Position numbers and translations under genes: made by a program. Positions 181 to 27,264 of a DNA stretch of 64,000 nucleotides are shown piece after piece. Under the pieces are notes generated by a model. That model was not told where the DNA came from. It searched no databases and saw only the letters and a program-made list of their open reading frames with translations. The stretch is from assembly GCA_019448385.1 (NCBI GenBank), contig JAGTXO010000074.1, forward strand, positions 56,206 to 120,205. The letters run 5' to 3'. Each line of letters opens with the position of its first letter. Positions within the stretch are counted from its first letter, which is position 1. This stretch comes from Diacronema lutheri. Lineage: Eukaryota; Haptophyta; Pavlovophyceae; Pavlovales; Pavlovaceae.

Positions 181-287
181 AAGCGGCGGCGCCTCAGAGC
201 ATGGCGCCCGCCCGCTCGAGCCGGACCTCCGCGCAGCCGGACTCGCCCCGCCCCGGGCTGCTCTGGCTGGGCGACGTCGTGCGCGCC

Positions 288-4914: not shown

Positions 4915-5480
4915 ATGCCCGCGGCGGCAAGCGTGACTCAGCGCGGCAACGTCGGGAGTGGTGCAGGCGGCGTTGAAGCGAACGAGAAGGTGGACGCGGC
5001 GGCGATGAGCGGCCACGGCCACACCGGCGCGTCACGGCCGCCGCCTCCGTCGCCTCGCGCGCGGAAGCGCGCGCGGCCGGCGCGACGGACGACGGCAGGG
5101 GCGTCGGCCGTGGCGGGCGTCGTGGGCGCGCCGCGCGCCAGCCACGCCGGCCTAGCCGGGCCGTCGTCGGCGTCGTCGTCGTCGGCGGCCTCGTCGTCGT
5201 CGGCCGGAACGGCGGCGCACTCGGCGCGAAGGAGGCCGACGGCAGCGCCGGCGACGCGCGCGTGTTGCCGCCTGCCGACAAGCTCGTCGCGCCGTGCGAG
5301 CGCGGTGTCGCCGTGTCGCCCTCGGCGGGCGACGTGGCGTGCGGCGCACGCGACGTCGACGCGGCCGCTGCCGCACGGCGGAGCAGGCGTGGCTGGTGCG
5401 GGGGCGGGGGGGGGGGGGGGGGGGGGGGGGGGGTTGGTTGGGGGGTCGGTCGATAAGGTCGCTGGGGACAATCTCCCATC
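4915..5480 (+). pseudogene. Diverged partial copy of the giant element gene N-terminus
   Basis: ATG 4915 opens MPAAASVTQRGNVGSGAGG, which aligns with MPMAASVTKGPGVGDGAGG beginning at 5743 in the intact gene downstream. Similarity continues (SGHGHTGA against SGDGCTGT; VAGVVGAPRA against VAGVEGERDA; LPADKLVAP against LSAGKPGAL) and then fades into the poly-G tract at 5406-5433. This is a tandem 5-prime fragment, either from an older insertion of the same family or a local duplication. No nuclease or protease domain is present. The frame then runs on to about 5496 without meaning. Confidence 0.7.
5406..5433. repeat. Poly-G homopolymer tract
   Basis: An uninterrupted run of about 28 G between the diverged N-terminal fragment and the promoter of the intact element gene. 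Confidence 0.95.
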
Positions 5481-5604
5481 AGAAACTCCCGCTTAAACAG
5501 CCGCTAGGGCGGCCGCGTCCGGCACGCCCAGCGCCGCGACGAGCGCGATGCATTCCACGAGCGCAGTGGTACATCGCTCGCCGTGGGGCGCACCACGGGC
5601 CTTC

Positions 5605-5610
5605 TATAAA
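5605..5610 (+). promoter_or_regulatory. TATA-box-like element of the giant gene
   Basis: CTTCTATAAATTTTTG lies in one of very few AT-rich patches, 109 nt upstream of ATG 5719. Position and context fit a core promoter for the element gene. Transcription start is inferred, not visible. Confidence 0.45.
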
Positions 5611-5718
5611 TTTTTGAGGCCAAGAGCGACGTCTTATCACACTTTCAAAAGCAGCGGATCAAAAGGCGTCTGCCAATCCGCCCGCGAGGACGACCGACGC
5701 GGACGACCAGCACGCGCG

Positions 5719-8700
5719 ATGGCGCAGGAGACGACCGGCTCGATGCCCATGGCGGCAAGCGTGACCAAGGGCCCCGGCGTCGGAGATGGCGCAGGTGGCG
5801 ACGAAGCGATCAAGGTGGAGGAAACGGCGAAGACGAGCGGCGACGGCTGCACCGGCACGCCTCCTCTGCGCCCGGCCGCGCGCGCGGCCGGCGCGGCGGA
5901 CGACGGAGGGGCGGCGGTCGTGGCGGGCGTCGAGGGCGAGCGCGACGCACTCGCCAAGACGGGTGCCGGCGGCTGCGACGACGACGCTCGCGAGCCGCTG
6001 TCGGCCGGCAAGCCCGGCGCACTCGCCGCCGCGGCGACCGTCGGGGGTCTCGGCGAGCTCGTCGGCAGCCTATGCGCGTGGCTGGCGCACGGCGCGGCTG
6101 GTGGCGCCATCGCGGCCATCTCCCCCGGGACGGCCGCGCGCGGAGCAAACGGCACGCCGCAGCGCGCCGAGCCGCCGGCCGCCGGCGATCCCGTCGCTCC
6201 GCACGCGTGCGTCGCCGCTGCGGCGCCCTTGGCGGGCAGCGCGGCGGCGCCGTCGTCGGCCGCGCGCGACGCGCAGCGCGGCGTCGCGGGATTCGACGCG
6301 GCCGCGCACGCGCACGCGCGCGACGGCAGGCGGGCGGCACGGCGGATGCGCAAGCAAGAGGGGGCGGTGCACAGGGCCTTCCGCAAGTCCCTCTGGCGCG
6401 ACGCGACGTTTGTCGAGTTCGTTGAGAAGCTGCGCCCCGACGGCAGCGCGCAGCTGCTCGCGCGCGAGCCCACGCGGCACGCGGCGGCGGTGCTGTGCGA
6501 GCTCGCGCGCGGCCGCGACGGCGCGAGCGGCGCGGCCGGGCTGCTGCACGAGATGAGAGCCGCCGATGCGCGCGCGCGCGAGGCCGCCAAAGCGGCGGAG
6601 GCAGCGCGGCTTGCGCACGGGACGCTGCGCATCGTGGCAACCGTGGCGCTGGGCGGTGCGGTCTTCGCCGGCATGTCAGCGCTGGTCGTTGCTTGCGCGG
6701 CGCGCACGGCGACCGGTGCGCTTTTTGGGGCCCGCCGCCCGCGGGCGGCCGCGCGCGGAGCCGACGACGCGCTCGGCACGCTGCAGCGCGCCGAGCCGCC
6801 GCCCGCCGACAAGGGCAAGCGCAGGCGCGCCAGAGCCAACGACGACCCCGTCGACGCGGCGCGCAAGGCCGTGGGCAAGGCGGAGGGCAACTGCCGCAAG
6901 GCAGCCCGCCGGCTGCACCTCGCTGCACTGGGCGAGGAGGAGGCGCAGCAGCGCGTGCTCGACGCCGAGGCGGCGGAGCAGCTGGCGCGCTCGCGCGAGC
7001 CGGCCGGCGGCTGGGTAGGCAGCGCGCGCGCGCGCGCGCGCGCCCCGCCGCGCGCGCGCCCGTCGATTGGCGTGCGCGCAGCGCAGAACGGCGCGCCAGC
7101 TCCGTCACCTGCGCGCCGCCGCGCCCGTGCCCCTCGCGCGCAGGGGCGCCCTGCGGACTTGCGGCTGCAACAGGCGCACTTTGGCATTCGCGAAGATGCC
7201 GACGCGGATGTGCGCCGCGCGCACGAGGCGCTGCGCCGGGCGAGACAGGGTGTGGCGTGCGCCAAGGCCAACGTGCGGCAGATGGAGGCGGCGTTGCTCA
7301 ACGCGACGCGCTGCGCCACCGCGGTGCTCGCGCCGCGTGGCGTGCCGGAGGGTGACGAGCAGGCCGCGGCGAGAGAGCAGGCGGCGCTGGACCGGGAGGC
7401 GCCGCCGGCCGCGGAACGCGCGGCGCCGACGGCGCGCTCGCCCTCGGAGCTGCCGTCCGAGTGGGGCCCGCCAGCGGTCGGCCGGCGCCCGACGCCGTGT
7501 GCACTGTCGCACGCCGCGGGTCGCGGGGACGACAACCCGTTTGCGCCGCTCGCAACCGTCAGCGGTGATTGGTCGCCCACGCCGAGCTTGCGCCCGCCGT
7601 CCTCGCCGCCGCGGCAGCCGCCGTCCGACCGCCGCAGCGCGCAGCGTCGCAGCGCGCGCGCGCGGCCGCCGAGGCCGACCGTTTCACCCGAGGAAGCGCT
7701 CGCAGCCGAGCGCCAGGCGCGCGCGCTGTCGGAGCAGGCGGAGCAGAGGCGCGCCAAAAAGGCCGCCGCCAAGGCCGCGCGCCGCGCCGCGCGCGCCGCC
7801 GACAAGCGGACGGCGCGCGTCGTCCACGCGTGCGTAAGCGCCGCCTTGCAGCGCGTCTGCACGAGCGTCGCCACGGGCACGCCGCTCGCCGTGCTCCGCG
7901 AGCGCGCCGAGAGGCCGCGCGCGCCGAAGGCCGCGCCCGCGCCACCACGCCGCGCAGCGGACGGCGGCCGCGCGCTCCGCCACGCGCGCCGTGCGGCCGA
8001 TGCGGCGGCGGAGCGCGAGGCGGCGGTGGCGGCCGACGCCGACGAGCGGTTCGAGCGGCAGCCCTCCGCCGCCCGGTTCGACGGCGGCGATGGCGGCGGA
8101 GGCGGCCACGTCGAGGCGAGCGCGCGACCGCGCGCCGGCGAGGCCGGCGAGGCTGGCGCGCACGGCGCGCCTGGCGCAGCGGGGCCCCCGGCGGCGTCGC
8201 TCGCGTCGCGCAGCCCGTGTGATGCGCGGCGCACGGCACGCCTCCCGCACGCACGCGCCGCAGCCACCTACGCAGGCAACGGCGGCTGGGGTGGCAACGT
8301 CGGCGGCGACGTGTGCGGCGATTGTTTCGGCGGCGGCGGCGTCCGTCGCGACGCCTGCGGCGGCGGCGACGCCACCTGCGGCTGCGGCGATGGCGGCGTC
8401 GGTGCTGGCGCTGGCGAGGCCCCTGCACACGGTGCGCCGGCGCGCGCGACGGCGTCGCGCTTGCTGCGCTTGCTCGGCGCGCCACGCGCCGTGCTCGGTG
8501 CGATGGCGCACGCCGCGGCCGTGTTGGCGCGCGGCGTGGCCGCAGCCGTCGCTGGCGTGCGCGCCGCCGCGCGCGCCGTGCGGCGCGCGCGCCGCCGAGC
8601 GCCTTGCGCGCGCCGCACGGCTGCGCGGCGCGCTCGCAGCCCGCCGATGCGCGACGTCGACGGCGCCCTGCGGCCCTCACCGTCCTGGCCGCGCACACGC

Positions 8701-11700
8701 CTCGTCTGCGGCCGGCGCCTCGCGCCTCTGCGCCGCGCGGGCGCGCGCCCGCCGCCCGCACACGCCGCGCCGAGTTCCCGCGCGCGCGCTGCGCAACCCG
8801 ACAGCGACGCGCCGGCGTGCGCGCCGCGGCGCTCGGCGCCTGTCGGTGCGCCGCCGCGCGCGCGTGGCCTGTGCGCGGCGCGCGCACGGCGCGTCCTCGA
8901 CGTCGCCGGCCGCGCGGCGCGGAGCGCGCGCCTCGGCGCGCGCATCACGCGCCAGCGCACGCCGGGCCCGTCATCGGAGCCCTGCACGGCCGAGAGCGGC
9001 GACGGCGCGGGCGCCGGCGGCATCGGCGCGGCGGCGCCTGGCGCGGCGACGATGCGCGCCACCGGCGCGCGCGCAGCGCGCGCTGCGGCGGCGGCGGTCG
9101 GTGGCGCCTCGCGTCTCGCGCGCCGCGCGATGGCAAGCGCCGCCGCCGCTGCCACCTCCATAGCCGGCGCTGCCGCCTCCACCGTCGCCGCCGCCGCCGT
9201 TGCCATCGGCGCGGCCGTCACGTCACCGGCGTTCGCCGCGGCGCGTGGCATGGCGGCCGCATGCGTCGCTGCCTGCGCCCGCCCCACCGCCGCGCAGGCG
9301 GCCGCGTCGCGCGCGCTCGGCGCGCTCTTCGTGCTCGTCGACGCGGCCGACGCGGCGGGCGACAGCGACGCCGCGCTCGGCGCGCTCGCGGCCGCGGTCG
9401 ACGCGACGGAGCTGCGCCCGCCGCCGGCCTTTTGGCGCGCGGGCCGCGCCGCGGCGTACGCACCGCGTCCGCCGCCCCTCAACTCGGCGCGGCCGCGCTA
9501 CAACCGGCGCGCGCGCGCACCTAGCCCTCCCGTCGCGGCCGCGCGGCGCAATCTCGAGCGCGCGGTGCGCGAGCTCACGCGCGCCGCGCGCGCTGAGCGC
9601 GAGCGCGCGCCGGCGCCGCGCGGCGCGCGCGGCGGCGTGCTCCACGCGCTGCGCGCGTCGCTCCCCGTGCACGCGCGCGTTGCGCTCGGCACGGACGCGG
9701 AGCTGCGCGCGGACATTGCCGCGTTCGCGCGCGCGCGCCGCGAGCTGCACAGCCTCACCGACGCCGAGGTGGCGGCGCTCGCGCGCCCGGACGGGCCGCC
9801 GCTGCCCGTGCGGCTCGCGTGCACGGCGGTCGCGCGCGCGCGCGCGGCGTGACCGTGCTGCTCGACATCGTGCCGCGCGGCGGCGGCGCGCCCGAGCGGC
9901 TCGTGTGCCGCGCCCGTCGCCGCGGCGCCGCCACGCGCACGCCACGGCCGACAGCCGCCGTTATCGCGCGCGCGCCTTGCATAGCGGCGCGCGTTGGCCA
10001 CACTGAGCCGGCGCGCGCGTGCGCGGGCGGACCGATCGGGGTCGTGCGCCTCCGTTCAGCGCGCCGCCCTTCTTGGCGTGGGGCGCGGCTCGACGTGCAC
10101 ACCCGCGAGCGGCTGGCCACACCGGTGCCATGCCACGTCGTGGCCTGCGCCGCCGCCTCGGCCATCGGCGCGTGCGTCGCTCGCGCGCGGCTTGGGCTTG
10201 CACGGCTGGCGCGCGCGTGGCCCTGCGCCTCCGCTCCACTAGCCACTGCTGCTGTCGCCTTCGCGCCTGCCGCCGACGGTGTTTTCCCCGCCGCACTAGC
10301 CGCTCCTGCATCCGCCTTCGCGCCTGCCGCCGATTTTCCCGCCCCACTAGTTGCTCCTGCATTCGCCTCCGCGCCTGCCACCACCGGCGTTTTCCCCGCG
10401 CCACTAGCCGCTCCCGCTGTCGCGTCCGCGCCTGCCGCCGCGGGCGTGTCTTCCGCCCCACTAGTCGCTGCCGCTGCCGCCCTCCAGGCCGCCTCCGACG
10501 GCGTTTTCCCCGCCCCACTAGTCGCTGCCGCTGCCGCCCTCCAGGCCGCCTCCGACGCCTTTTGCCCGGCTCCACTAGCCGCTGCCGCTGCCGCCCTCCA
10601 GGCCGCCTCCGACGGCGTTTTCCCCGCGCCACTAGCCGCTGCCGCTGCCGCCCTCCAGGCCGCCTCCGACAGCGTTTTCCCCGCCCCACTAGTTGCTCCT
10701 GCATTCGCCTCCGCGCCTGCCACCACCGGCGTTTTCCCCGCGCCACTAGCCGCTCCCGCTGTCGCGTCCGCGCCTGCCGCCGCGGGCGTGTCTTCCGCCC
10801 CACTAGTCGCTGCCGCTGCCGCCCTCCAGGCCGCCTCCGACGGCGTTTTCCCCGCCCCACTAGTCGCTGCCGCTGCCGCCCTCCAGGCCGCCTCCGACGC
10901 CTTTTGCCCCGCTCCACTAGCCGCTGCCGCTGCCGCCCTCCAGGCCGCCTCCGACGGCGTTTTCCCCGCGCCACTAGCCGCTGCCGCTGCCGCCCTCCAG
11001 GCCGCCTCCGACAGCGTTTTCCCCGCCCCACTAGTTGCTCCTGCATTCGCCTCCGCGCCTGCCACCACCGGCGTTTTCCCCGCGCCACTAGCCGCTCCCG
11101 CTGTCGCGTCCGCGCCTGCCGCCGCGGGCGTGTCTTCCGCCCCACTAGCCGCTCCTGCATCCGCCTTCGCGCCTGCCGCCGATTTTCCCGCCCCACTAGT
11201 TGCTCCTGCATTCGCCTCCGCGCCTGCCACCACCGGCGTTTTCCCCGCGCCACTAGCCGCTGCCGCTGCCGCCCTCCAGGCCGCCTCCGACGGCGTTTTC
11301 CCCGCCCCACTAGTCGCTGCCGCTGCCGCCCTCCAGGCCGCCTCCGACGGCGTTTTCCCCGCCCCACTAGTCGCTGCCGCTGCCGCCCTCCAGGCCGCCT
11401 CCGACGCCTTTTGCCCCGCTCCACTAGCCGCTGCCGCTGCCGCCCTCCAGGCCGCCTCCGACGGCGTTTTCCCCGCCCCACTAGCCGCTGCCGCTGCCGC
11501 GTCCGCGCCCGCCGCCGCGGGCGCGTCTTCCGCCCCACCAGCCATCGCCGCCGCGCCCGCCGCCAACGCGCGCACCGCCAACGTGCCCGTTGCCAACGAG
11601 GCTACCGCCACCGAACCAGCCGCCCTTGAGCTTCCCCTCCAACCCGCCAACTCGGCGCTGCTTGCGTGGGCGGGCGACGCGGCTGCGCGCCGGCTGGCCG

Positions 11701-12613
11701 CCGCCGCCGCGAGCGCCGGCCTCCCGCAGGCAGAGGTGGAGCGCATCGCCAGCGGCGACATGCTCGCCTCAACCGTCGACGCGTGCTGCGAGGTCGTGCT
11801 GCGCGTGCACGGGCAGGCCGGCGGCGGGCATGTCTGCCACGTGCCGCTCGCCGCGCAACCCGCGGTGTTTCAGGACGACGCCGAGCGCGCCGCGCTGCTG
11901 CACCGCCTGCGCAGCGAGGCGACAACGCAGGCTGTCATCGGCGTGTGGAGCCCGTCGGACGAGCGCGGCGGCGCGGGCGGTGACGACGGCGCGCAGCTCG
12001 CCTCCGGCCATTTCACCGCGTTGCGCCTTGTGCGCGTCGCGCGCGCGGGCGAGCATCGCTACGACGCGGTGCTCGTCGACACGCTCGCGTCGCCCTGCAG
12101 GCAGGCGCTCATGCTCGCCAAGGCGATAACTGCCACGCTGCACGCGGCGGGTCTCGACATTTCGCGCGTGCGCCGCGCGCTGCTGCTCAACGAGGCGGCG
12201 CAGCGTGGCGCGACGTGCGGCCTCGCGATAGTGGGCGCGCTCAACGACGCGCTCGCCGCGGCGGGCTGCTCGTCCGCGCCGCGCACGTTCAGCGTGGCGG
12301 ACATGTACGCTGTCGGCGAGCGCCTCCGCGTCGCGCTGACCGGCGCGGCCAGCGATCGTGCGCCGGGCGGCGTCTGCGCGGTCACGAGCGCGGTGCGCGG
12401 CGGGGGCAGCCCCGATGGCGCCGAAACGCCGCCGCAGACGCGCGGCGCCAAGGCCGCCGCTGGCGTCACCGCCGCCGCCACCGCCGCCGCCACGCCGCCG
12501 CCGCCCGCGCTGGGCGCCGCCGCCGCCGCCACCGCCGCCGCCGCCGCTGCTGCCGCCGCCGTGGCCGCGCCGCCACCGCCGCCACCGCCGCCGCCGGCCG
12601 GCGACGCGGGCGA

Positions 12614-12683
<70 letters not shown>

Positions 12684-15600
12684 GCCGCGCGCACGTTCTT
12701 GAAGCTCGCGCCCAGGGCGCGCGCGGCCGCCTCGGCGCGTGAGGCGTTGCGCGCCGCGTGTGCGCGCGCGGACGCGGCGGCGTCGTCACACGCGTCGGCG
12801 CCGCACGCGCCCGCCGGTGCGCGCCGCCGGCGGCGCGCGGACGCAGGCGAGCTGGCGCTCGCGGCTGCGCGCGCGCTCGCCTCGACGGAGCACGGCGATT
12901 TGACGGACGACGCGCTCGAGGCCGCCGTCGAGCAGGAGCTGGGCGACGAGCGCGGCCAACTGCTGCTGTGCACGCGGGGCGCAGCGGCGCAAAGGCCCGC
13001 GCTTTGCCGGCTCCTGAAGCACGCGTGCGCGTCGGCGCGCGCGGCGAAGCGCGCGCAATTCACGGTGTTCGTCGTGCGCGCGGCCACGCGCGGCGAGCGG
13101 GGGGGCGCCGCCGCGAGGCGCGTGGACTCGGTGGTCGAGCTGTCGTGCGCGCTGCACGAGAAGGCGGGCGCGCTCGGCGGCCTCCAGCGCGTCTGTGTGC
13201 GTGGCTTCGCCCTCGAGCGCCGCCGGACACTCGACGCTGGCGCCGAGGCCGGCGCGTCCGCCATCGGCCAGGACGAGCAGGTCGAGGCAGAGGCGGGCGA
13301 GGCGTGCGTCGCCGGCGTGACGATGGCCAAGCAGCTGCGTCAGTTTGCCGAGCAAGCTGCCCGCGACGACGTGCTCTTCCACGTCGCCGTGTCCGAGGCC
13401 GACGCCCACGCCCGGCTGGCGCGCGTTGCGGGTGACGATGTCGGCGCGTACAGCGTCGTGCTCGCAGTCGCCGGGCTCGTCTGGCTGGCCAAGGCCGACG
13501 AGGTTGCGCCGACGGCCGCCCAGCCCGCCGCCGTGCCGCCCGCCGCCCCGCCTGCTGCCGCCACGTCCGCCGACGCCGAGCGCGACGCCTCGCCTTCCGA
13601 CCGCCTGCGCGCGCTGACGCTCGCCGTGCGAGTCGCGCTCGCGCGCGGCGTGCTGCGCCACCTCCTCGCCGACGCGTCGCCGGGCGCGTCCGCGACCGCT
13701 GGCGGTAGTTGCGCGACGCCCGTCGAGGCGGCCACGTCCGCCGCCGCGCCGCCCGCCACGGGCGTCGTGACGAGTGGCGTTGCGGCGGGCGCTGTGGCGG
13801 CCGCACCGGCTGCTGCGGGCGGTGCGATGGCGGGTGCATCGCCCATCACGCGGCCGGCGAAGCGCGCGCGGCGCACGCTCACCGCCGCTCCAGCCGCCTC
13901 GGCCGTTGCGGCCGCTGGAGGCGCACGCGCGGGCGCACGCGGCGCGGCCGGCGCGCCTCGCGCGCGCGCCGCGCGCGCGCCGGCCGAGTACGTCTGGCTT
14001 GCCATCGCGCGCCGGATGCTGGCGGCGCGACACGCGGCGGCCGCGGGCGGCGACTTTGTCGCGTCGTGCGTCGCCGCGATGCAGGCCGAGTACGGCGACG
14101 GCTGTGCCGTCGTCGTCGGCGACGCGCCTGATGACGCCTTGGTCGAGGCTGCGGCGGCGGCGCTGCTCGAGGGCAAGCACGCGGCGGTGAGCCTCGGCTG
14201 CGTCGACCGGCCGGCGGTGCTCGTCGTGCAGCGCGCCGTGGACGCGCCCACGTCGCGCGTGCACGGGTGGTGCGCGCACGCGGCGGGCGCCGCCGAGTTT
14301 GACGAGGGCGCCGCGCACGGCGTGTTCAACGCGATCGTCGAGCGCGCGTGGGCGCTGCGTCCGGACCCGGCCGACGGCAGCCCGCCGCCCACGCGCACGT
14401 GGGAGGTCGAGCAAATCGCTGGCGACGCGCCCGACCAGGCGGGCGTGGCCGCGCTGCGCGTGCTCTACGCGCTCGTCGCGGCGCACGGCCGCTACCGCTC
14501 GGCCGCCGCGCTCTTTGGCGCGCTCGCGCAGCTGCACGCGCCCGACGCCGCCGGCGCGCGCGCGGAGGTCGTCGCGGCGGCGTGCGCGGTGCCGCCCGGC
14601 GCGCGGCCGGGCGCCGCGCCGGCGGCCGCGCGGGACGACGCGAGGGAGCGCGCATGGGACGGCGCTCAGATCGCCGCGCTCGCCGTCGGCGCGGACGCTG
14701 CGCGCAGGCGTGTCGCGCCCGTGCGCGCGCTCGTCGACGCGCTCGGCACGCCACCGACCTCGGCGATCACGGGCGGGCCGGCGGTCCGGCTCGCGGGCGC
14801 GGGCGACGGCGGCCACGGTGCACGGTGGGTGGGCGGGCAGGCGGCGACGCCCGCCGAGCAGCTGCCGAGGGAGCTGCTGCGCGCCTACCACGAGGCGGTG
14901 CTGTGCGTCACGCCCGGCAGCCTCCAGCTCGGCCCGGCGGCGCTCGACGCGGTCACGCGGCCGCGCGAAAACGACACGCTGGAAGGCCTCCTCGCGCGCG
15001 TCAGCTGGCAGTGCGGCGCGAGGGCGAGCACGTGCGCCATGCTCGCCACGTTTTCCGAGCAGGCGGGCACCGGCTCGCGCGTCGCGCTCAAGGCCCTCCG
15101 CACGAGCTCCGACCTGGCCGGGCTGACGGCGGCTGCGGTCGGGCAGCAGGCGCCGCAGACGCCGCCGCCGCCGCTTCTCGTGATGCTCGGCCGCTGCCCC
15201 AGCCCGCTCGTCGGCGGCGGCCTCTTCCCGCCCGACCGCGCGACGGGCGAGCCGGCGGTGCACGCGGCGACGTCCGAGCTCGCCGTCGAGCTGCTGCGCG
15301 ACGCGCGCGCGCTGGCCGGCACGGACGGGCGGCTCGTCGTCCTGTGCCTCGAGGCGTCCAACCCGCTCTGGTTCTGCCCCAAGGTGCGCGAGCTCGAGCT
15401 GCCGCGGACGCGGTCGGACGGCGTGCGCGCGTCCGGCTGCACCTGCCCTGCGACGTGCAGCGATGCGCGCGGCGCGGCGGGTGGCGCTGCCCGCGGCGCA
15501 TCGACGCGGCCGGCGGCGCGCGCGATCAACAAGGCGGTGCTCGACCACTTCGTCGCGCTTTTCGGCCGCGAGGGCTTCGCGACCTTTGAGTTTGCGGGCG

Positions 15601-18600
15601 GCGGCGAGGCGAGCTGGCTGTGCGACAGCGCGGCCGGCACGACGACCGTCGCGGCGTGCGCGTCGCTGCCGCCGCGCATGGGCGATGGGCAGCTGGCCAT
15701 CCGGCGGCACACGCTCGGCACGGGCGCCGACGCGCCGGCGCACGCCGTCGTCTCGCTCCGCGTCGCGCACGTGAGCCACGCCATCCGCCGCGCGGCGGAC
15801 GACGGCGGCGCGCGCGCCGAGCGGATGGCGCGCGCCGCGCGCGCGTTCTGCGATGTGGCGGCCGCGCTGCGCGTCGACGCGATCCTGGCGGAGGTGCCCG
15901 AGGACCGCCCGACGGGCACGCCCTTCCTTGGCGGGCTGCTCAAATGTTGGGACAAACGCAACGGGAGCTGGACGGCGCCAGCCACGCTCGCGCTCGGAGA
16001 CGTGCGCGAGGTGGCCAAGCGGACGGCCGACGCAGCGGCCGGCCGAGCGGACGAGGTCCCTGCGGCTGGCCGTCCGCAGGTCGCGGCGCGCGCGTGCGCT
16101 GGCGCGATTGGCGGCGGCGCGGGCGCGGCGGGCGCCTCGGACGCTGCGCCGCGTGCACTGGCGGGCGCGTCGGGTGCGCGCACGGACGGCGGCCCTGCCG
16201 ACGCACCGCGCCAGCTGGAGAGCCGCTACGGCGAGGCGAGCAAGCTCGACCTACCCCAAGATTCCACTACGGGCCGCGTCCTCGACGCTCGCGAGGCCCA
16301 GGACCGCGCGCGCGTGCCTGCTGCGCCCGACGGCACAGCGCTGCGCCGCGTGCTCGACGCCGTCGGCGCGGGCGCGCCCGCGCAGCGCAGCCCGCGCTGG
16401 CACGACGAGCGATGGGAGGAGGTCACGGGTAGCAAGGTTGGCGACGTCGTGAACGACAACGCCGGCGTCGCGCACGAGACGCTCACCGACGAGTACGTGC
16501 ACCGGCGGCGGCGCGAGGTGCGGACCAAGGCGACGACCGCGGGCATCCTCGGCGAGGCCGTCGCGCTGCGCAAGCTGGCGGCCGCGTACGGCATCACCGT
16601 CGTGTGCAACCTGCCGATGGTGCGTGCGGACCCGCACGACAAGAGCGCGCCGTTCGCCTTCTCGCCGGACGGGCTCGCCATCCTCCCCGAAAACAACGAG
16701 CAGGTCCTCGTCGAGGTGAAGACGCTCACCAAGGCGGGCGCCACGGCGCACGAGGACGGGCCGCCGCAGCCGCACCGCGATCAGCTGCAGCTCGGCATGC
16801 ACGTCCTCGGCGTGAGCAAAGCGCTCTACGTGCAGTACCTCAGGCACGAGGACCGGATCGTCGTGCACGTCGTGACGCGCGGCGCCGGCTGGCTTGCATT
16901 CGCGCAGCCGAGGGTGCAGGCCTTCTGGGCGCGCGTCGTCGAGCGGCGCGCGCGGCTCGAGCGCGCGCGCGCCGACCACCCGGCTGCGAGCCGGCGGCAC
17001 CGGTGGCAGCAGACGCCGGCCGGGCCGCCGCTCGTGCTCGCGCTGGACGGGCGCATCCCCGCCGCGCGCGCCGCCGCGCTGCACGCCGTCGCGCACGGCA
17101 CCGCGAGCGCGGCGGCGGTGACGGCGGCGGCGGCGACGGGCGACGCGACGGCGTTGCAAGACGCGATCGCGGCGCTGCGCGCGCCCGTCGGCAATGCGGC
17201 GATCGACAGCGCAGCGCGTGCGGAGCGCGCGGCCGTCGAGCGGGCGATCGCGTACCTCGGGCAGCCGGCAGGCGACGCCGCCGCCCGCGGCACGGCCGAG
17301 GCGGCCGAGGAGGAGAGGACGGTCGACGCCGACATCTGCGCGTTGCTGCACCAGCTCGGCGCGAGCGTGGCGCACGTGCACGTCGAGGACGCGGATTGCG
17401 TCACGCGTGAGCACTGGGGCGGGGCGGTGCTCGCTGCAGCGGGCGACCCGTCGAGCGCCCCCGCCATTTCGAGCGTCATCGTCGCGCACATCGTGCGCCT
17501 CGCCGGCTTTGGCGTCGAGCTCCCGCAGTCGATTCGCGTCGCCCCCAGCACGGCCGACTGGCACGAGGGCTGGCTCGACGTGCAGTGCGTGCTGCTGCGC
17601 ACGCGCCGGCGCGGGCGGCGCGACGACGACTTTGTGGCCGTCGTCAGGCGCGGTGGGCGCTGGTTTGCGTGCGAGCCCGGCCGCGCGCGGCGGCTGCAGT
17701 GGCGGTCGGTCCTGCGCCGCGCGCGCGGCGGCGTCGACGGGACCGGCGAGGAGGCGTTCGCGGTCGTCTACGTGCGGCGCGGCGACGCGGCCGGCGACGC
17801 GGCTGGCGACGCGCAGGCCGAACGGGCGCGCGGCGGGCGCGCGCGCAGGCGCACGCGCGGCGGCACGCGCAAGCGCAAGCGCGGCGCCTCCGCCGGGCTC
17901 GAGGCGGCCGCGCCCGCCGGCGCGCCGGCGGGCGCTGCTCACCGCCCGCCCGCCAGGCGTGCCACGGTCGCCGCGCGCACCACGCGCTCTGTGACCGACG
18001 CGCGGCACTCGGCGCCTGCCGCCACGGTTGCACCTGTCTTCGACTGGCGCGCCGGCCGCCCGCCCCCTGCCGCCGCCGCCGCCGCCAAGCGCGGCCAGGC
18101 GCTCGAGCCGGGGCAGTTCGCGCGGCCGCGTGGGCGCGCGCCATGGGGCAAGGTCTGGGACAGAGTCTCGGGTGCGTGGGCGGACAAGCCGACTGGTGCT
18201 GCCGTCGCCGCCGCGCCGCCGCCGCTGCCGCCCGCCGCCGCGCCGCCGCCCGCCGCCGCGCCGCCGCCCACCGCCGCGCCGCCGCCCGCCGCCGCGCCGC
18301 CGCCCGCCGTCGCGCCGCCGCCCGCCGCCGCGCCGCCGCCGCCGCCGCCACCGGCGGCGCTCGGCCGCCGGCAGCACGTCGGCGCGGGCGGCAGCGCGGC
18401 GGGCCGGCGGCTCGCGGCCATCGCACGGCGGCAGCGCGGCGTGCGCGCGCCGCCGCCCGCCGCGCGCTTCCTCGCCACGCTGCCGCCACCGCCACGCGAC
18501 GGCCTCGCGCGCACGAGCAAGCAGGCGCGCGCGAGGCGCAACGCGGACGGACGGCCGGCGCACGCGCGCGCGGCCAACGCGCGCGCCTTCTACCGCGGCG

Positions 18601-21600
18601 TGGAGCTCGGCGTGCACGCGACGCGCGCCATCGTCGACGCGCGCCACGCCGACCTGCCGCAGGCCGTCTTCGTGGCGGAGGCGCGGGCGATCGTCGCGCG
18701 CTCCGCCGGCGGCGGCGCGCTGCTCGCGCCGGACGACGTGCGCGACCTGTGCGACGCGCAGACGGACGCCGATCGCGCTGCGATCTGGGCGTCGGTGGGC
18801 GCGCACGAGGCGACGCGCATCTTCGCGCTCGTCACGCGCAACGCGAGCTTGGCGGGCGCGGCGCTGCTCGTGCTGCACACGCCGGCGGGCGCGCCGGCGC
18901 GCGCGCTCGGGCTCGTGGCGACGCGCTCGCGCGCGCCGTCGACGGGCGCGCCGCGCGACGCGCACAGGGCGCTGGTGCAGCGGTTGGACGTGCTGATGGA
19001 CGCGATCGCCGCGGCGCGAGGCGCGTCGCCGCTCGAGCTCGAGCTCGCGCTCGCGCCCGAGCCGCAGAGCGCGTGCAACGCGCGTGCGGCCGCGCTGCTC
19101 TGCCTGCAGGCCGTCGCGGACGCGAGCGGCCGTCCCGCCGCTGAGGACGCGCTGGCCGCGCTCGACGACGCGCGCGGCATCGACCGGCACTGCCACGCCG
19201 TCCGGCAGCAGATCGAGGCGAAGCTCGCGTGGCGGCGCGCCGACGGCGCCGTCGGCGTTGACGGCGCCGACGGCGCGCCCGCGCTCGCGCCTGCCGCCGC
19301 ACCGCCGGCGTGCGCGCCGGCGCACGCTGCCGGCGAGGCGGCGGTCGACCAGGCGATCGTCACGCGGGTGCGCGACGCGCTGCGCGCGTGGGCGACGACT
19401 GGCACCGCGCCCAGCGCGGCGGTGCTCGACGACGCCTGCGCCGCGTACACGGCCCGCGCACGCGCGCGCAAGGACGCGCGCACGGCGCTGGGCCCGACGC
19501 GCGCGGCCGAGCTGCTCGCCGCGGCCGCGCGCGGCGGAGCCGACGGGGCGGATGCCGCGCGCGCGCTGCTCGGCGGCACGCCGCGCCTGCTCGTCGTGCT
19601 CCTCTGCGTGCCCGTCGCCGCGCCGTCCGGCGAGCCGCCGCGCCCGGTCGGGCTGCTCGTCGCCGACCGGCCGACGGACGACTCGCGCCCGGCCGCGCTC
19701 GTGCGCTACGACTTTGCGCCGCTCGACGCGGACGTGGCCGTCGCGGTCGGCGCGCATGCCGTCGCGCTGGCCAGTGCGATCTGGCCGCTGCTCGCGGCCG
19801 AGGGGGAGCCGCGGCCATCGCCCGTCGTGCGCTCGCAGCCGCGCGGCGGCGACGATGGCGCGCGTGCGCTCGCAACGTTCGCGTGCCTCGACGCGCTGAT
19901 GACCGCCAGCGTCGGCGCGCACGGCCTCGCGGGCGGCGCGGGCATGCTGCCCGCGCTGGTCGCGCGAGGCGCCGCGGCCGCCCAGCGCGAGCGGCAGCTG
20001 CGCGCGGCCGCCGAGAGGCTGGGCGGCACGGTCGCTGGGTGGCCGGACACGGGCGCGAGCGCGGCGGGCGCGAGCGTCGACGAGGAGGCGCGCACGTACG
20101 AGGTCGAGGCGGTCGTCGACGAGCGCCGCAAGGCGGGCAAGAAGGTGACGTTCCAGTTCCGGATCAGGTGGCGGGGCTACGACGAGAGCGCCGACACGTG
20201 GGAGCCTGAGGCCAACGTGAGCAGCGACCTCGTCGCCCAGTTCCGCAAGACGCGCGACGAGCAGAAGCGGCGCGCGGGCGTATCGGGCAGCGGCAGCGGC
20301 GGCGCGGGCGCGGCGTCGGCATTGGCGTTGGCGCCGCTTCGCGCGCACGGCGAGTCGGGCGCCGCGGGCAAGCGCGCCGCGGCGGGTGCCGCCGCGAGCG
20401 CGCGCGACGCCGCGGGCGCGCGCGCGCCGAGCGTTCCCCGCGCGCGCGGCGTCGAGCGCGCGCGCGTGGACGAGCCCGCTGCGCCGAGCGCGCGCGCCGC
20501 CGGCGGCGCGACGGCGCGCACGCGCGTCAGCGTGCTCCCGGGCTTCGTGGTCAAGCGCTCGACGCTCAACGCGGGGCCGCAGGCGGTGACGGCGCAGCCC
20601 GGTGCGCGGAAGGAGCTGCGGCGCATCGCGGCGGCCGTGCACAGGCTCACGACACAGGCGTACCGCGTCATCAACAAGGTGGTGCGCGACGAGGCTGCGG
20701 TGGCGAGCGCGCAGGCCGTCGGCGCGGCGTCGGGCGGCCCGTCGACCAGCGTGCACACGTCGACCACGATGGACAAGGGAACCGTCCGTGCGATCTTCTC
20801 GGCCATCGGCTGGCACAAGGACGAGAGCACGTACGGTGCAGCGCCCCGAGGCAAGCCCGCCGAGCAAGCCGCCGCGCAGACCAAGGCGGCGACGGCGCGC
20901 GCCGTCGGCGAGATGGCCGAGGGCGTCCAGCCCGTCTGCGCGGTGGGCCTCACGGAGATCCTCGAGGCGGAGGCGACGCAGGTGTCCACCGCGTGCCTGA
21001 TGCATCCATCGCGCGTCGTGAACGGGCTGCTCCGCGACGTCGTCCGCGCGGCAGTCGAGCGCGACGAGGCGCTCGTCGCGCTGCCCGAGATGCAGCGAAA
21101 CGCGCGCGTGCGCGAGCTGTGCGAGCGGCTGCTGCGCGGCGACGTGGAGGGCGCGCGCGTCGGCTGCCCCGCCGCGCTCGACCGCCACCTGCCCGACATG
21201 GTCCTCCACAAGATCGACTACAAGTGCACGCCCACGAAAAGGTGGAACTACGACCGGCACACGACGCGCTACTTCCTCGTGCAGATCCGCACCCTGCAGC
21301 ACGTGGCCGAGGGGCAGGCGCTGCTCTGCCGGCTCGCGCACATCCACACGCAGCTGACCGGACGGCCGCCGCGGTACAATGTGGCGCCGCTGCGCACGCA
21401 CAATGTGCGCGCGAGGCGCGGCTGCCGCTGCCGCCGCCGAGCGCCCAAGCGCGCGCGCCGCCGCCGTGCGCGCCGCCCCGCGGCCAGGTTGGTCACGCGC
21501 CCGCGCGCTCGCGCGCCGCGCGCTGCGCGCAGGTGCCGCGCAACGTGCGCCTCGCCGCGAGCGCCATCTGGGTGACGCTTTCGGATGACGAGCGCAAGGA

Positions 21601-23257
21601 GCTGCGCGCGCGGCTCAAGGCGCTGGACCTGCGCGACCACGATGGCGAGCCGATCAAGTGGACAGGCACAAACGGCAACACCCCGCCGATGTCGGACGTG
21701 CGCGTCAGGTACGCGGTCTTTGCGACGCGCTTCGACATCTCCAACCGCGTCTTCGACTACGCCGGGCGCGAGCGGCCGCCGGCCGATCTGCCGTGGCACG
21801 CGCGGCGCTCGTGGGTTGGCCTCGCGCCGCTGCCGCGCGTGCCGCTCCCGGGCCGGCAGCCCGTCAAGTCGGTGGTGACAGATGGCGTCGCCGTGCACGC
21901 CGTCGGGACCGTCCTCGTGCCGAAGGCGCAGGCGCCGGCCGGCGGCTCGGGCGTCCTGCACCGCTGGCGCCGGCCGGACGGGCGCATCGCCGTCGCGCTC
22001 GGCTCCGAGCTGCGGCGGGCGATCGACGTCGAGGCGGCGGTCGTCGTCGCGGCCGACCCGAACATGGGCAACATCACCACCTACTCTGCGCACGTCGGGC
22101 GGGCGGCCGTCTGGCGGCAGTTCACGCAGCGCGCGCGCGCGCGCGCCGCGGGCTTTGCGCGCGAGACGGCCAAGACCAACGCGGCGCGGCGGCGCGTGCG
22201 CAAGGACGGGCGCGGCGAGGAGTTCAGCGTGGAGGCGGACGAGGCGCGGCTTGGCGAGGCGCACAGCGCCAAGGTGCTCGGCGAGGGCGAGTTCCACGCC
22301 TTCCACCGCGAGAGCGCGCGGGTGCGCGAGCGCGCCGCCGAGCACGTGTACGACGCGCCGGCGCGCCGGAAGGAGCGCTGGCGGCGCGACAGCGGCGGGC
22401 GGTCCAACGCGGCGCGCGTCGCCGAGGCGCTCATCGCGGCGCACTGTGTCGACGGCGTGACGCGCGACCGGCTGCTCGTGTGCGTGGGCAAGTGGCTGCG
22501 CGACCACAAGGGCGCGCAGCCCAAGGGCGCGCCGCCCGCCTTCCAGGTGGGGCTGCTGCGCGAGCTGCGGCGGCGCGGCGTCGCGGCCGTCTTCGTGCCC
22601 GAGCCGTACACGTCGATGCACTGCTCGATGCCGCGGCTCGCCAAGGGCGGCAGGCTGCAGCGCTGCGGCGCGGAGCTCGCGCAGAACCCGCGCCTGCCCG
22701 TGGCAAAGGGCGGCACGCGCACGGTGCACGCGCTCGTCATCTGCCCGGCGTGCAACGGCGGCAAGAAGCCCGTGCACCGCGACTACAACGCCGCGCGCAA
22801 CATCTTCTACGACGTGCACGACATGGCGGCGCACGCGGCCGGGCGCGACACCACGTCGACGCCTGAGCGCTTTGCCCTCGTGCTCGCCTGGTGGGCGCGC
22901 GGCGAGGTGTGGGAGCGTGAGGAGCGCATGGTGCACGGCGAGGGCGACGACTGCGACGACGAGTGCGACGGCGACGACGAGGGCGACGACGAGGGCGACG
23001 ACGACGACGACGACGATGGCAGCGGCGACGGCGGCGGCGGCGAGGGCGACGGCGACGGCGACGGCGACGGAGGCGGCGGCGGCGACGACGACGATGACGG
23101 CGGGGGAGGCGGCGGCGGCGACGGCGGTGGCGACGACGGCGGCGGGCGCGGCGGCGGTGGCGGCGGCGGCTCTCGCGCCCGCACCCCCGCCCGCGGAGCT
23201 GCCAGCGCCAGTGCCGGCGGCGGCAGCGCGCGCGGGCCGAAGCGCGGCCGGCGTTGA
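5719..23257 (+). CDS. Giant Fanzor-fusion polyprotein, left copy (one CG-slip frameshift, one intron)
   Basis: Predicted exons are 5719-21404 and 21533-23257. One dinucleotide-slip frameshift occurs at 9831-9846; allowing for it, the product is about 5,800 residues. Order: Ala-rich N-terminus with a hydrophobic segment (6619-6708), coiled-coil-like charged segment (6820-7000), 19-residue repeats (10230-11540), candidate Ulp1/C48-like protease (11764-12340), poly-Ala, unassigned domains (13980-16010), YqaJ-like nuclease (16387-16960), Pro/Ala linker (18215-18357), chromodomain (20086-20265) and Fanzor nuclease (20560-22900) with an acidic tail. Start choice: ATG 5719 follows the TATA-like box; ATG 5743 is the position conserved in the upstream fragment and is an alternative. 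The Fanzor RuvC triad is complete. The frame in the right copy is continuous where this one is broken, so the single-protein model is well supported. I know of no described protein with this architecture. Confidence 0.8.
6355..7010 (+). other. Conserved-looking island with hydrophobic segment and charged helix
   Basis: Within the low-complexity N-terminus this part encodes a more ordinary sequence: AFRKSLWRDATFVEFVEKL, then a ~25-residue hydrophobic stretch (VATVALGGAVFAGMSALVVA), then charged helical sequence (DAARKAVGKAEGNCRKAARR). The hydrophobic stretch could be a membrane anchor, which is surprising in a protein otherwise expected to act on DNA. It could also be a buried helix. No family is recognised. 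Confidence 0.45.
9831..9846 (+). other. CG-dinucleotide slippage site breaking the reading frame
   Basis: Between GGCGGT and GCGTGACC this copy has eight CG units, while the right copy has seven (61947-61960, reverse complement). The extra CG moves the frame so that the upstream part ends at TGA 9850-9852. The downstream part continues open for more than 3,900 codons. In the right copy the same residues read straight through (TAVARARGVTVLLDIV). It is either a true inactivating slip or an assembly error in a CG run. Confidence 0.9.
10230..11540 (+). repeat. In-frame 57-bp tandem repeats with 342-bp higher-order unit
   Basis: About 23 in-frame units of 19 codons, most ending FPAPL or SSAPL followed by the CCACTAG junction. 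Two unit types alternate: one Ala/Leu/Gln (AAAAALQAASDGVFPAPL) and one Ala/Ser/Pro (APAFASAPATTGVFPAPL). A six-unit block repeats exactly every 342 bp; the TTGCTCCTGCATTC marker is at 10351, 10693 and 11035. The right copy has only about five units (61259-61560). Length change is in multiples of 57, so the frame is kept. Confidence 0.92.
11764..12340 (+). other. Candidate Ulp1/C48-like cysteine protease domain
   Basis: The segment shows the order of the CE-clan catalytic residues: His in GHFTAL (codon 12009-12011), Asp in VLVDTL (12078-12080), Gln (12201-12203) and Cys (12216-12218) in AQRGATCGLA. The Gln-Cys spacing is one residue shorter than in SUMO proteases, and the Gly after Cys is typical. 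It could cleave the host ubiquitin/SUMO system, or cut the giant protein into working parts. All four residues are identical in the right copy (Cys codon 60593-60591). The fold is inferred from motif order only. Confidence 0.5.
12513..12695 (+). repeat. GCC trinucleotide runs (poly-Ala/Pro)
   Basis: Two long GCC-rich blocks encode poly-Ala, with a Pro-rich block between. The right copy has one extra GCC codon, and this in-frame change shifts the coordinate offset between the copies by 3. Confidence 0.9.
13980..16010 (+). other. Unassigned domains between protease-like and nuclease regions
   Basis: Two well-composed blocks. The first (about 13980-14520) ends with QIAGDAPDQAGVAALRVLYA, which has the shape of a C48 Gln...Cys-Gly motif with the Cys replaced. 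The second (about 14870-16010) is rich in Cys and Trp (VLCLEASNPLWFCPKVRELE, CTCPATCSD, GGLLKCWDKRNGSW) and unlike the surrounding low complexity. It is nearly identical in the right copy. I do not recognise the second block. The high content of Cys, Trp and Phe argues for a folded, selected domain. Confidence 0.4.
16387..16960 (+). other. YqaJ-like PD-(D/E)XK nuclease domain
   Basis: Motifs of the lambda-exonuclease/YqaJ group appear in order: RWEEVTGSKVGDV (near 16407), GEAVALRKLAAAYG (near 16550), the metal-binding Asp in FSPDGLAIL (near 16659-16685), the E-x-K pair in VLVEVKTLT (16705-16731), and HRDQLQLGMHVLGV (near 16773), which matches the YxxQxQ-type motif IV. Catalytic acids and Lys are present in both copies. 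Such enzymes resect or degrade DNA and serve recombination in phages; many eukaryotic mobile elements carry relatives. In this fusion it could process ends made by the Fanzor nuclease. Confidence 0.85.
17330..17770 (+). other. Unassigned domain with protease-like features
   Basis: DADICALLHQLGASVAHVHV and, further on, DDDFVAVVRRGGRWFACEPG suggest a compact folded domain. The second motif resembles the His-loop region of Josephin or OTU-type peptidases (HFxAVVRxxGRW), but the expected His is replaced by Asp/Phe. No assignment is made. Confidence 0.3.
18215..18357 (+). repeat. Pro/Ala tandem repeat linker
   Basis: An imperfect 18-bp repeat encoding PPPAAA units, about seven copies, forming a flexible linker inside the giant protein. 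It is present in the right copy around 54452-54600. Confidence 0.85.
20086..20265 (+). other. Chromodomain
   Basis: The translated segment carries the chromodomain signature: aromatic-cage Tyr in YEVEAVVDERR, strand FQFRIRWRGYDE with cage Trp, and TWEPEANV, followed by the C-terminal helix (LVAQFRKTRDEQKRR). All three cage aromatics are present. Chromodomains bind methylated histone tails and, in retrotransposon integrases, direct insertion to heterochromatin. In this protein it lies just before the Fanzor nuclease, so it may tether the nuclease to particular chromatin. It is identical in the right copy (52541-52720). Confidence 0.9.
20560..23257 (+). other. Fanzor (TnpB-like) RuvC nuclease domain with acidic tail
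   Basis: N-terminal helical part: KELRRIAAAVHRLTTQAYRV, MHPSRVVNGLLRDV, then KIDYKCTPTKRWNYDR. Next come RYNVAPLRTHN and, across the intron, VPRNVRLAASAIW, then VKSVVTDGVAVHAV. The RuvC triad is complete: Asp in AADPNMGNITTYS (codon 22055), Glu in FVPEPYTSMHCS (22601) and Asp in HRDYNAARNI (22781). The zinc-finger region has C in MHCSMP, RCG and CPAC but lacks the usual first CxxC. The C-terminus (22916-23230) is Asp/Gly-rich and ends KRGRR, a possible nuclear signal. Fanzors are eukaryotic relatives of TnpB/Cas12 that cut DNA guided by an RNA from the element 3-prime end. Subtype is not decided here. Confidence 0.9.
21405..21532 (+). other. Predicted 128-nt intron inside the Fanzor coding region
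   Basis: Donor GTGCGCGCGA follows CACAAT and acceptor GCGCGCAG precedes GTGCCGCGC. Removal joins RYNVAPLRTHN to VPRNVRLAASAIW, restoring a continuous Fanzor sequence and correcting the frame (128 is not a multiple of 3). Without splicing the giant frame stops at 21575. Donor and acceptor match the host introns of the window. The right copy has the same sequence at 51401-51274. Confidence 0.8.
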
Positions 23258-23665
23258 CGCACGGCCGAGCCGCGCAGCGGTCGACGCTTTGCGGGCTCTG
23301 CCCAGGTCGCGCGCGGCTGGCGACGCGTGCCGCGCGCGGCACGACCGTGCACGCCGCCACCCGTGGCCGAGCGCGCCGCACCAGCCGGCCCGCTCCAACC
23401 GCCGTGCGGATCACGGACGCTCGCTACGGCTCGTCGGCGCGCGTCACCTGCGCCGGCGGCCACGGCGCCGTCTGCTCCGGCCTCGTCGCGAGCAGCCCGA
23501 CCGCTGCTCGCCGCCCGCACGCCGCCGCAGCAACGCTGCGCGTCGTGCTCCCCCGCTCGCCAAACGCGAAGAGCTCCCTCACAAGGACGTCCTTCCGAAC
23601 GGCCCGCGCTGCACTCGGGGCGCGATCGTGCCCCTGATCGGATTTGGCTTGACCATCTATACGCG
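23258..23665 (+). ncRNA. Conserved 3-prime element region; candidate guide (omega) RNA
   Basis: The 408 nt between the Fanzor stop and the element boundary are kept in both copies (right 49548-49141) although they contain no convincing gene. In TnpB and Fanzor systems the guide RNA is transcribed from the element 3-prime end and its guide segment is the flanking DNA just past the boundary. The last 60 nt (ATCGGATTTGGCTTGACC) are notably less GC-rich. If the rule holds, the guide of this copy would start at 23666. No RNA structure was computed; this is inference by analogy. Confidence 0.4.
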
Positions 23666-26700: not shown

Positions 26701-27179
26701 AGCGCGCGGCGCGGCGCGGCGCGCTCGCGCGGGTGCGCACGTGCGTGATCGGGCGCGCGCGCGCCGCGCCGCGCGACGCGCGCGCCTTCTTCGCCGCCGC
26801 CGTCGGCGCGCGGCTCGGCGCGCGCCGCGCCGCCGCCGCGTGCGCGCGCGCGCTGGGCGCGTGGCGTGGCGCGCGCGCGGCGCCGAGCGCGCGCGCGGCC
26901 GCGGCGCTTGGCGCGTGGCTCGAGCGGCGCGGCGCGCTGCGCGAATGGCGGCGCGTGGCGGCGGGTGCGCACGCGGCCGCGCGCGCGGCGGCCGTCGAGG
27001 CCGCGCGCGCGCGCGGCGCGGGCCGGCTTCGCGCGCTGCCGCGCGCCGCGCCGCGGGGCGGCGGCGGCGCGGGTGGCTCGCTCGCGCGCGGAACGGCGTG
27101 CGGTGGCGCGTCGCCCTCGCTTGGCCTCGCGAACCGGCTCGGCGCGAGCACGCGCCGGCTCGACATCGCCGCCGTGTGA
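23725..27179 (+). CDS. Filamin-repeat plus Sfi1-like centrin-binding repeat protein (one frame break)
   Basis: ATG 23725 lies 60 nt past the mobile element. Residues ~50-135 resemble a filamin/ABP280 repeat: an acidic-hydrophobic strand pattern with DGLWSVLYRGDV and ending RPVRGAPFLVRILAG. The rest is a long array of Ala/Arg helical repeats with spaced Trp (ALRAWR, LRGWRAA, ALREWRR), period about 33-34 residues; one unit is duplicated at 26415 and 26517, 102 nt apart. This matches Sfi1-type centrin-binding repeats of centrosome or basal-body fibres. The frame changes from that of 23725 to +2 near 25885-25910, within a CG-repeat run, and continues to TGA 27179. Either a dinucleotide slip, an assembly error, or an unseen intron. 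Ala/Arg monotony is driven by GC content, so the Sfi1 assignment is moderate. Confidence 0.55.
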
Positions 27180-27264
27180 CGCGACCGTGGATCCCTCCGC
27201 CATCGTTCGGACGCCAACCGGGTCAGCCAACCGGTTAGGCCGTTAGGGGACTTTTAAGTTACCC

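Follow-up and report, generated by a model that had tools for sequence, protein, structure and literature searches.

Fanzor and TnpB nucleases share the motif D-X(125,275)-[TS][TS]xx-C4 zinc finger-X(5,50)-RD (PMC3627910; here and below, papers are cited for those portions of their text that were accessible). A hallmark of Fanzors is a catalytic glutamate repositioned to six residues ahead of the first cysteine of the zinc finger, and a DPG at RuvC1 is reported to be near exclusive to them, being characteristic rather than strictly defining (PMC10711439). The Fanzor-bearing DNA elements described in the accessible text measure about 2-9 kb and encode Fanzor as a protein of its own; several of the known host elements lack clear terminal inverted repeats (TIRs) or target-site duplications (TSDs). 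Here we examine a 64,000-nucleotide stretch of the genome of the marine haptophyte microalga Diacronema lutheri (C54:56206-120205, referred to as the window; contigs are designated C plus a number). The window contains two inverted copies of a DNA element, a left one (about 1-23662) and a right one (49144-64000, minus strand, with its 3′ end at 49144). Judged by comparison with other copies, among them a complete one on contig C71, what is observed makes up the 3′ two-thirds of a mobile DNA element that is very large (31 kb when complete) and was amplified recently. This element resembles the described ones in being a multicopy DNA element with the D...[TS][TS]xx-C4-RD arrangement and differs from them in its size, about 31 kb, and in having RecE-like and chromodomain sequences in frame with the Fanzor. 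On balance we lean, by a little, towards the view that its last gene contains one intron and specifies a fusion in which a long N-terminal region is followed by a RecE/YqaJ-like exonuclease, a chromodomain and, at the C-terminus, a Fanzor-type nuclease.

The nuclease is of Fanzor type, and we regard the Fanzor as real. Its RuvC/zinc-finger half, followed by an acidic and glycine-rich tail, occupies 21533-23257 (plus strand) in the left copy and 49549-51273 (minus strand) in the right copy. The RuvC triad that a first, sequence-only reading of this DNA had placed at Asp 22055, Glu 22601 and Asp 22781 is encoded at exactly these positions (codons GAC, GAG and GAC). The zinc-finger domain passes the Pfam cut-off for Cas12f1-like_TNB (PF07282; 28.0 versus 26.3 bits, E 2.4e-6), the published Fanzor/TnpB motif is present with a D-to-TS spacing of 185 residues (P0006 numbering), and both the repositioned glutamate (E-PYTSMH-C) and the RD are found. 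The zinc finger and the RuvC triad with its repositioned glutamate are shared with SpuFz1, GtFz1 and PpFz1 (PMC10432273, PMC11423790); unlike these proteins, which carry DPG and were studied as single proteins, the nuclease described here has N-terminal domains added and DPN at RuvC1. Since this DPN weighs against a plain assignment, we hold the claim at "Fanzor-type". When 8,000 candidates drawn from 5.8 billion proteins were scored, the RuvC half had only two relatives with an E-value of 1e-5 or below: P0006, which is 100% identical and comes from a 2,435-nt contig, and P0007 (46% identity by the search, 50% in an alignment), in which the triad is invariant and RuvC1 reads DTG. A sequence search of the PDB returned no significant match, the best being Cas12f1 (E 0.39 and 0.087), and the AlphaFold model of the RuvC half had a pLDDT of 38.8, too low for reading the WED/REC and RuvC fold. 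The N-terminal half (20520-21404, plus strand, the exon 1 part) has no profile match of its own and was assigned by position and splice continuity.

In both window copies the RuvC half lies in a separate frame. A 128-nt GT..AG intron at 21405-21532 (plus strand) is strongly indicated; once it is spliced out, one Fanzor frame continues into the other with no intervening stop. Alignment of the C71 and left copies over 11.9 kb revealed 44 substitutions, of which the flank past the element end accounts for one, and a pair of indels. The first, of 3 nt, keeps the frame; the second, of 2 nt, lies inside the intron and is the sole one that is not a multiple of 3. Past C71:177000 there are five substitutions within the element, two in the intron and none in the frame of the RuvC exon. 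Two lengths prevail for the open frame containing the RuvC half, 1,015 codons, as in the window copies, and 633, as in C71, with other lengths also present; in the copies compared, the 2-nt intron indel accounts for these two classes, and splicing would yield an identical protein from both. The same RTHN-VPRN junction occurs in KFE25_006464, an annotated host protein which is a diverged fragment sharing a 99%-identical stretch with the element; D. lutheri genes were predicted by BRAKER2 with RNA-seq (PMC8379373). For the right copy, the intron was computed at 51274-51401 (minus strand) from the position of RTHNV (51399-51413) and the length of the left-copy intron. In KFE25_006464 (P0008) the piece spanning the junction of the Fanzor N-half and exon 2 is joined in frame to SAM domains, and from C63:28001 onward diverged Fanzor shards (IRCAVFATRFDISNRVFDYA...) continue in frame into an open reading frame (ORF) that by eye is kinase-like. 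The joined domains are unrelated and host-like, and both loci look like old Fanzor pieces captured by other genes.

Upstream of the splice donor runs a long frame, ORF2 (9819-21404, plus strand), which contains the N-terminal half of the Fanzor, a chromodomain, a RecE-like exonuclease and, at 10231-11500, a tandem array of a 57-nt (19-codon) repeat. The chromodomain (20097-20249, plus strand) scores 46.1 bits against a Pfam Chromo cut-off of 25.1 (4.7e-12) and matches the PDB chromodomain 2dnt (6.5e-9). The exonuclease domain (16374-16946, plus strand) bears SPDG and EVK motifs, and a 260-residue piece matches the RecE-like exonuclease family phrog_434 at 5.8e-17. Pfam YqaJ passes its cut-off in the near-identical C71 copy (28.2 bits), falls under it in the window protein (15.2 versus 22 bits) and is not listed for a 164-residue piece. 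The profile match and the PD-(D/E)xK-like motifs are common to the RecE/lambda-exonuclease/YqaJ recombination nucleases. In phages these nucleases are often separate genes, whereas here the domain lies within a giant frame together with a Fanzor. Thus the profiles bear out the central proposal of the sequence-only reading, a mobile element in which a Fanzor-type nuclease forms the C-terminal end of a long frame that also carries a YqaJ/RecE-like exonuclease and a chromodomain: Chromo, Cas12f1-like_TNB and phrog_434 give support, YqaJ does so above cut-off in C71 only, and C48, the protease family that had also been proposed, does not.

Do these domains belong to a single gene? The sequence establishes the element, its ends, its minimum copy number, its domains and a common open frame; a fusion translated as one protein of about 3,900-5,000 residues is what we infer. 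In C71, codon-position GC is coding-like in a single frame that takes in the RecE-like domain, the chromodomain and the Fanzor N-half (about 170.9-180.7 kb), with dips in low-complexity parts; after about 180.7 kb the signal moves to the RuvC frame. The fusion frame contains 0 stops in 9,876 nt, while a Markov model predicts a mean of 24 per frame and left none of 300 simulations open, which argues that the openness over 9.9 kb is not due to chance. By segment, simulations with 0 stops numbered 0/300 for ORF1 (the frame upstream of ORF2), 3/300 from the GC run to the 57-mer array, 58/300 in that array, 0/300 for the RecE-like segment, 0/300 from the chromodomain to the intron, 8/300 for the chromodomain plus Fanzor N piece and 2/300 for the RuvC exon. 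Against this, one frame of the minus strand is likewise free of stops from the chromodomain to the intron and in the RuvC exon, and an antisense frame stays open for 2,902 codons in C71:171978-180683. There, the absence of stops is therefore weak evidence when taken alone, and the codon-position signal and the position of start codons weigh more. No in-frame ATG occurs between 19944, ahead of the chromodomain (20091), and 20769, 83 residues into the Fanzor (20520); if initiation is ordinary and no exon has gone unseen, a complete Fanzor must therefore include the chromodomain, and the sequence speaks against an ordinary Fanzor start near 20.5 kb.

The Fanzor could nonetheless be a separate gene, expressed from an internal promoter with a non-AUG start or an unseen upstream exon, the common frame being incidental. 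Fanzors in the accessible literature are stand-alone proteins, GTG, TTG and ACG codons are found between the chromodomain and the Fanzor, and at such a GC content long meaningless frames can arise, as illustrated by the 2,902-codon antisense frame, the minus frame without stops and the 8 of 300 simulations open over 1.3 kb. Nevertheless, the first 82 residues of the Fanzor offer no in-frame ATG, the codon-position signal keeps the same frame on both sides of the junction, and none of the simulations stayed open over 9.9 kb; we consider a separate gene unlikely. At the gene level, the chromodomain-Fanzor fusion thus appears highly probable on sequence grounds, and its extension to the RecE-like exonuclease likely.

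Extension to ORF1 is another matter. The sequence-only reading had described one continuous frame of about 5,800 residues starting at 5719 and unbroken in the right copy. The left copy is instead read in three frames (5548-9852, 9819-21575 and 20993-23257), and its RuvC half lies behind the intron. The element continues from 5746 to 9829 (plus strand) at 97.6% identity to C71:165949-170686, in frame 1 up to a frame break in a GC run at about 9.83 kb, where the left copy and C71 differ by 2 nt (the right copy lies outside that alignment). The right copy has an open frame at 63998-51231 (minus strand), its ORF2 up to the splice donor spanning 51402-63998, and so it does bridge this break; its RuvC half, however, is out of frame, and the copy runs off the contig. 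As C54 ends at 120,205 bases, opposite left-copy base 7787, the right copy cannot test 5719-7787. The proposed start itself lies in a segment found in a minority of copies (see below). Among 150 copies scored of 186 first-look candidates (93-100% identical), nine have an ORF1 that runs on (at least 3,752 codons), but in 132, by hand count, it is a frame of 1,345-1,351 codons that is not joined to ORF2. The run-on frames of C11, C48 and C75 (6,136, 5,746 and 5,753 codons) have equal lengths in this survey and in a survey of the chromodomain-Fanzor junction, so they reach that junction. Because ORF1 and ORF2 are in different frames in most copies, the longest version of the fusion is doubtful, and we think it improbable. 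At the junction itself, 107 of 150 copies scored of 284 candidates have open frames of at least 4,000 codons, 70 of them within 4,490-4,521; 27 have fewer than 3,000 codons, which counts against the fusion, although some are perhaps cut by contig ends.

The protease-like domain of the sequence-only reading corresponds to an H..D..Q..C pattern of the C48 cysteine protease type, discernible by eye at 12006-12221 (plus strand; GHFTALRLV at 12006-12032, QRGATCG at 12201-12221); such patterns can be seen in ORF1 as well as in ORF2. C48 was rejected: Pfam was silent at E<=5 and E<=10 with the whole protein and with cut pieces, as was a PDB search with the ORF1 piece. The full-length C71 element also encodes a UCH-type ubiquitin protease (1e-8), in another frame; its motif is absent from the window, the right copy being cut before that region. 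With these protease-like segments, the giant frame might be translated whole as a polyprotein and then cut, possibly by its own activity, so that the mature Fanzor would stand alone. Yet neither a C48 profile nor cleavage sites were identified, and the one protease that Pfam recognises is encoded outside the frame. This alternative seems to us quite unlikely.

A search for relatives also tells against the long architecture, which the sequence-only reading had suggested seeking in other genomes: the 1,767 candidates scored, proteins of about 2,150-6,850 residues, included none from beyond this genome with that architecture. A database search with the chromodomain-Fanzor N piece returned KFE25_006464 only. 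A fusion of Fanzor with an exonuclease or a chromodomain was not found described in titles and abstract openings of mainly non-subscription literature; in the accessible text, the words fusion and fused are absent from PMC10432273, and fusion and chromodomain from PMC11423790. What appears to be new is therefore a Fanzor-bearing transposon with this fusion and of this size, Fanzor-bearing transposons themselves being known.

Searches of the genome (43.49 Mb, 103 contigs; published for strain NIVA-4/92 as 43.503 Mb, 103 contigs and 73% GC, PMC8379373) show how widely the element has spread. There are at least 150 copies, with 98-100% identity over the chromodomain-Fanzor piece. The RuvC half is free of stops in 96 of 97 scored copies (the best 97 of 411 first-look candidates), and the 209-residue chromodomain-Fanzor N query in 148 of 150 (the best 150 of 284). 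The interior of the element was examined in C71, the left copy and C28. The left copy starts about 2.7 kb before the window (C54:53528) and totals 26.3 kb. Its 5′ part in the window (1-3740, plus strand) contains the helicase gene and is 98.8% identical to C51:180-3910. A 2-kb segment follows (3741-5745, plus strand) which, by alignment to C71, replaces about 7.7 kb of the full form, where the UCH protease is encoded and ORF1 has its 5′ portion; it includes a TATA-like stretch and the ATG at 5719. A probe from this segment (5445-5745) had 18 matches in the genome, 16 near full length and two partial, and the segment thus marks a minority subfamily. Among the matches listed, pairs of ends on the same strand lie about 31.0 kb apart in C71, three C9 copies and others, and closer in C3 and C5 (26.5 kb), C4 (21.6 kb) and C28 (12.65 kb); the C28 copy is a plain internal deletion in which the two ends and the RuvC half survive.

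The 3′ end, ...GACCATCTATAC, is exact and is followed by 33 distinct flanks. The base after CTATA was C in 35 of 35 junctions compared, a few of these from the same place. The 5′ boundary, TATATA[C/G]GG, is common to C71, C45, C54 and C87 by alignment and occurs in ten further copies. No TIR was found at the one pair of ends compared. When flanks on both sides were inspected in 14 copies, 13 lacked an exact target duplication of 3 bp or more. The base before the 5′ end is C in 11 of the 14 (flank frequency 0.28, p about 1e-4), and that after the 3′ end is G in 22 of the 33 flanks (flank frequency 0.29, p about 1e-5). A DDE cut-and-paste transposon was therefore set aside (no TIR in one end pair, no fixed-length TSD in 13/14), and the clean ends, the lack of a consistent target duplication and the C^G preference lead away from an ordinary cut-and-paste transposase. 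The remaining copy of the 14, C9:2907801-2938845, has an apparent 13-bp duplication, GCGAGGACTATAT, and adjoins TATATACGG, which resembles the element's own 5′ end. A search for an empty site of the C4 copy gave flanks inside another dispersed repeat and no clean pre-insertion site. Targeting of telomeres was considered, as several contigs begin or end near an element 3′ end, and was rejected: eight such ends are element or other non-telomeric DNA. Given this sequence and assembly by Canu, we take them for assembly breaks at a long repeat. C45 begins with telomere-like CCCTAA repeats, about 2.2 kb ahead of an element's 5′ end. The 5′ non-coding part of the element also contains large inverted repeats, imperfect and about 0.9 kb in size, whose arms are rich in GTGTAGG (C71:153840-154720; C54:55525-56411, which includes window 1-206), and near the 5′ end there is a small coding-like region on the minus strand (C71:151850-153500, MYPQNVSELLPDEIFGD...).

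Which enzyme inserts the element? The sequence-only reading had seen a self-contained mobile machine. No support for this emerged: no Rep, DDE transposase, tyrosine recombinase or serine recombinase was recognised in the scanned frames, where divergent ones could escape, and this too weighs against our reading. The element does encode the N-terminal part of a PIF1-type helicase, in a frame at 691-2076 (plus strand; Pfam PIF1 3.7e-14 in C71) with its P-loop HLCDAPGGTGKT at 1756-1791; FTHGQLHVA, which by eye we take to be a C-terminal helicase motif, lies at 3011-3037 in a different frame. The first 257 residues of the helicase frame, before the P-loop (window 763-1755), match no Pfam family and by eye resemble a single-stranded-DNA-binding protein. 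Several features are signs of a link to Helitrons: the helicase, target sites left unduplicated, a short stretch on C63 and, 28 nt from the 3′ end, a GC-rich hairpin. That stretch (C63:37687-37808) is 122 bp long, 93% identical to the helicase frame of the element (window about 1502-1623), and lies 1.7 kb after the sole match in the genome to PF14214 (Helitron_like_N, Rep; C63:35738-36019); on this basis the helicase may be of Helitron origin. The Helitron2 elements CRe-1,2,3 of Chlamydomonas, which carry Fanzor1 (PMC3627910), are alike in their algal host, PIF1-type helicase, 5′ T start, lack of TSD (13/14 pairs here), internal deletions and a fixed 3′ end that has a hairpin close by (28 nt from the end here). 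They differ in that the element described here shows no HUH/Rep domain in the frames scanned and targets C^G, while theirs insert after TTTT. H-x-H pattern matches in the element are few and by eye not Rep-like, and the only Y2 pattern falls in a short stretch containing stops. With the helicase part present but no HUH Rep domain recognised, we do not claim membership of the Helitrons; the sequence features point towards an insertion route that is Helitron-like or tyrosine- or serine-recombinase-like.

These results leave room for the Fanzor fusion being an idle passenger, or dead cargo, of an element amplified by machinery encoded elsewhere, for example by the C63 Helitron. In addition to the missing transposase, the Helitron Rep with its nearby 122-bp match, which tells somewhat against our main reading, and the hairpin placed as in Helitrons, the substitutions between C71 and the left copy look neutral (12 silent, 29 replacement), with no purifying selection seen. 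In C71, the one copy read in detail, the helicase shifts from one frame to another, and 132 of the 150 copies scored have ORF1 out of frame with ORF2. On the other hand, nearly all RuvC halves and junctions are free of stops among the best copies scored (96/97 and 148/150), the triad is invariant in the 50%-identical P0007, and neither end motif of the element is present in the 18 kb around the C63 Helitron. We rate an idle passenger as rather unlikely, while giving it real weight. Helicases, RecE-like exonucleases and proteases are common in large DNA viruses. Fanzors also occur in such viruses (PMC3627910), and the element might thus be the integrated relic of one, and not a transposon. Its fixed ends, its many different flanks and its at least 150 near-identical copies are at odds with this, no capsid or packaging domain appeared in the scanned frames, and an IMG/VR search with P0007 gave no match; we find a viral relic very improbable.

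Between the two copies of the element lie ordinary host genes: a CRAL-TRIO gene (27265-29823, plus strand), an ATP synthase subunit C-like gene (40613-42493, minus strand) and a short-chain dehydrogenase gene (46750-47781, minus strand). In two regions of about 83-90% GC (24127-27238 and 34619-40213), very long frames stay open on several strands and Pfam returned nothing; these regions are possibly extremely GC-biased genes or low-complexity DNA. At 43144-43580 there is an array of six spaced direct repeats of 61 bp, four of which are 98-100% identical to the reference copy.

How might the fused protein serve the element? The Fanzor stop codon lies 405 bp from the right end, with no other recognised gene between; this non-coding end (23258-23662, plus strand) is where one would look for a right-end guide RNA, as TnpB/Fanzor elements produce their guide RNA from the right end, reading into the flank (PMC10711439). 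Against such a guide, the right-end RNA folds only weakly better than shuffled sequences (z -1.3 and -1.4). By analogy with TnpB/Fanzor, a guide RNA reading into flanking DNA would direct the nuclease to cut the matching empty site, the RecE-like exonuclease would resect the break, the chromodomain would keep the protein tethered to chromatin, and repair that draws on the copy bearing the element would preserve or multiply it. The reading we like best is thus that of a chromatin-tethered, RNA-guided cut-and-resect protein. The full proposal, a single giant protein combining Fanzor cleavage, 5′-3′ RecE-like resection and tethering to a histone mark, present in at least 150 copies and copying a 31-kb element into guide-matched sites by recombination, is possible and we put it forward tentatively, as something we would not yet expect to hold.

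The published description of the D. lutheri genome names, in its accessible text, only LTR and LINE repeats (PMC8379373). With at least 150 copies, many of them shorter than the full 31 kb, the element probably makes up a sizeable share of this compact genome, and the near-identity of its copies suggests that it is young and perhaps still active, in a host that is a culturable alga. Members of the Fanzor family have so far been studied as single proteins in the work accessible to us. One that shares its frame with a resection exonuclease and a chromatin reader would open the idea of cutting followed by recombination to a direct test, and bears on the question of what Fanzors do for eukaryotic transposons. 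If the reading holds, a eukaryotic transposon would have provided a natural fusion of a Cas nuclease, an exonuclease and a chromatin reader, a naturally evolved combination that may be of use for genome engineering.

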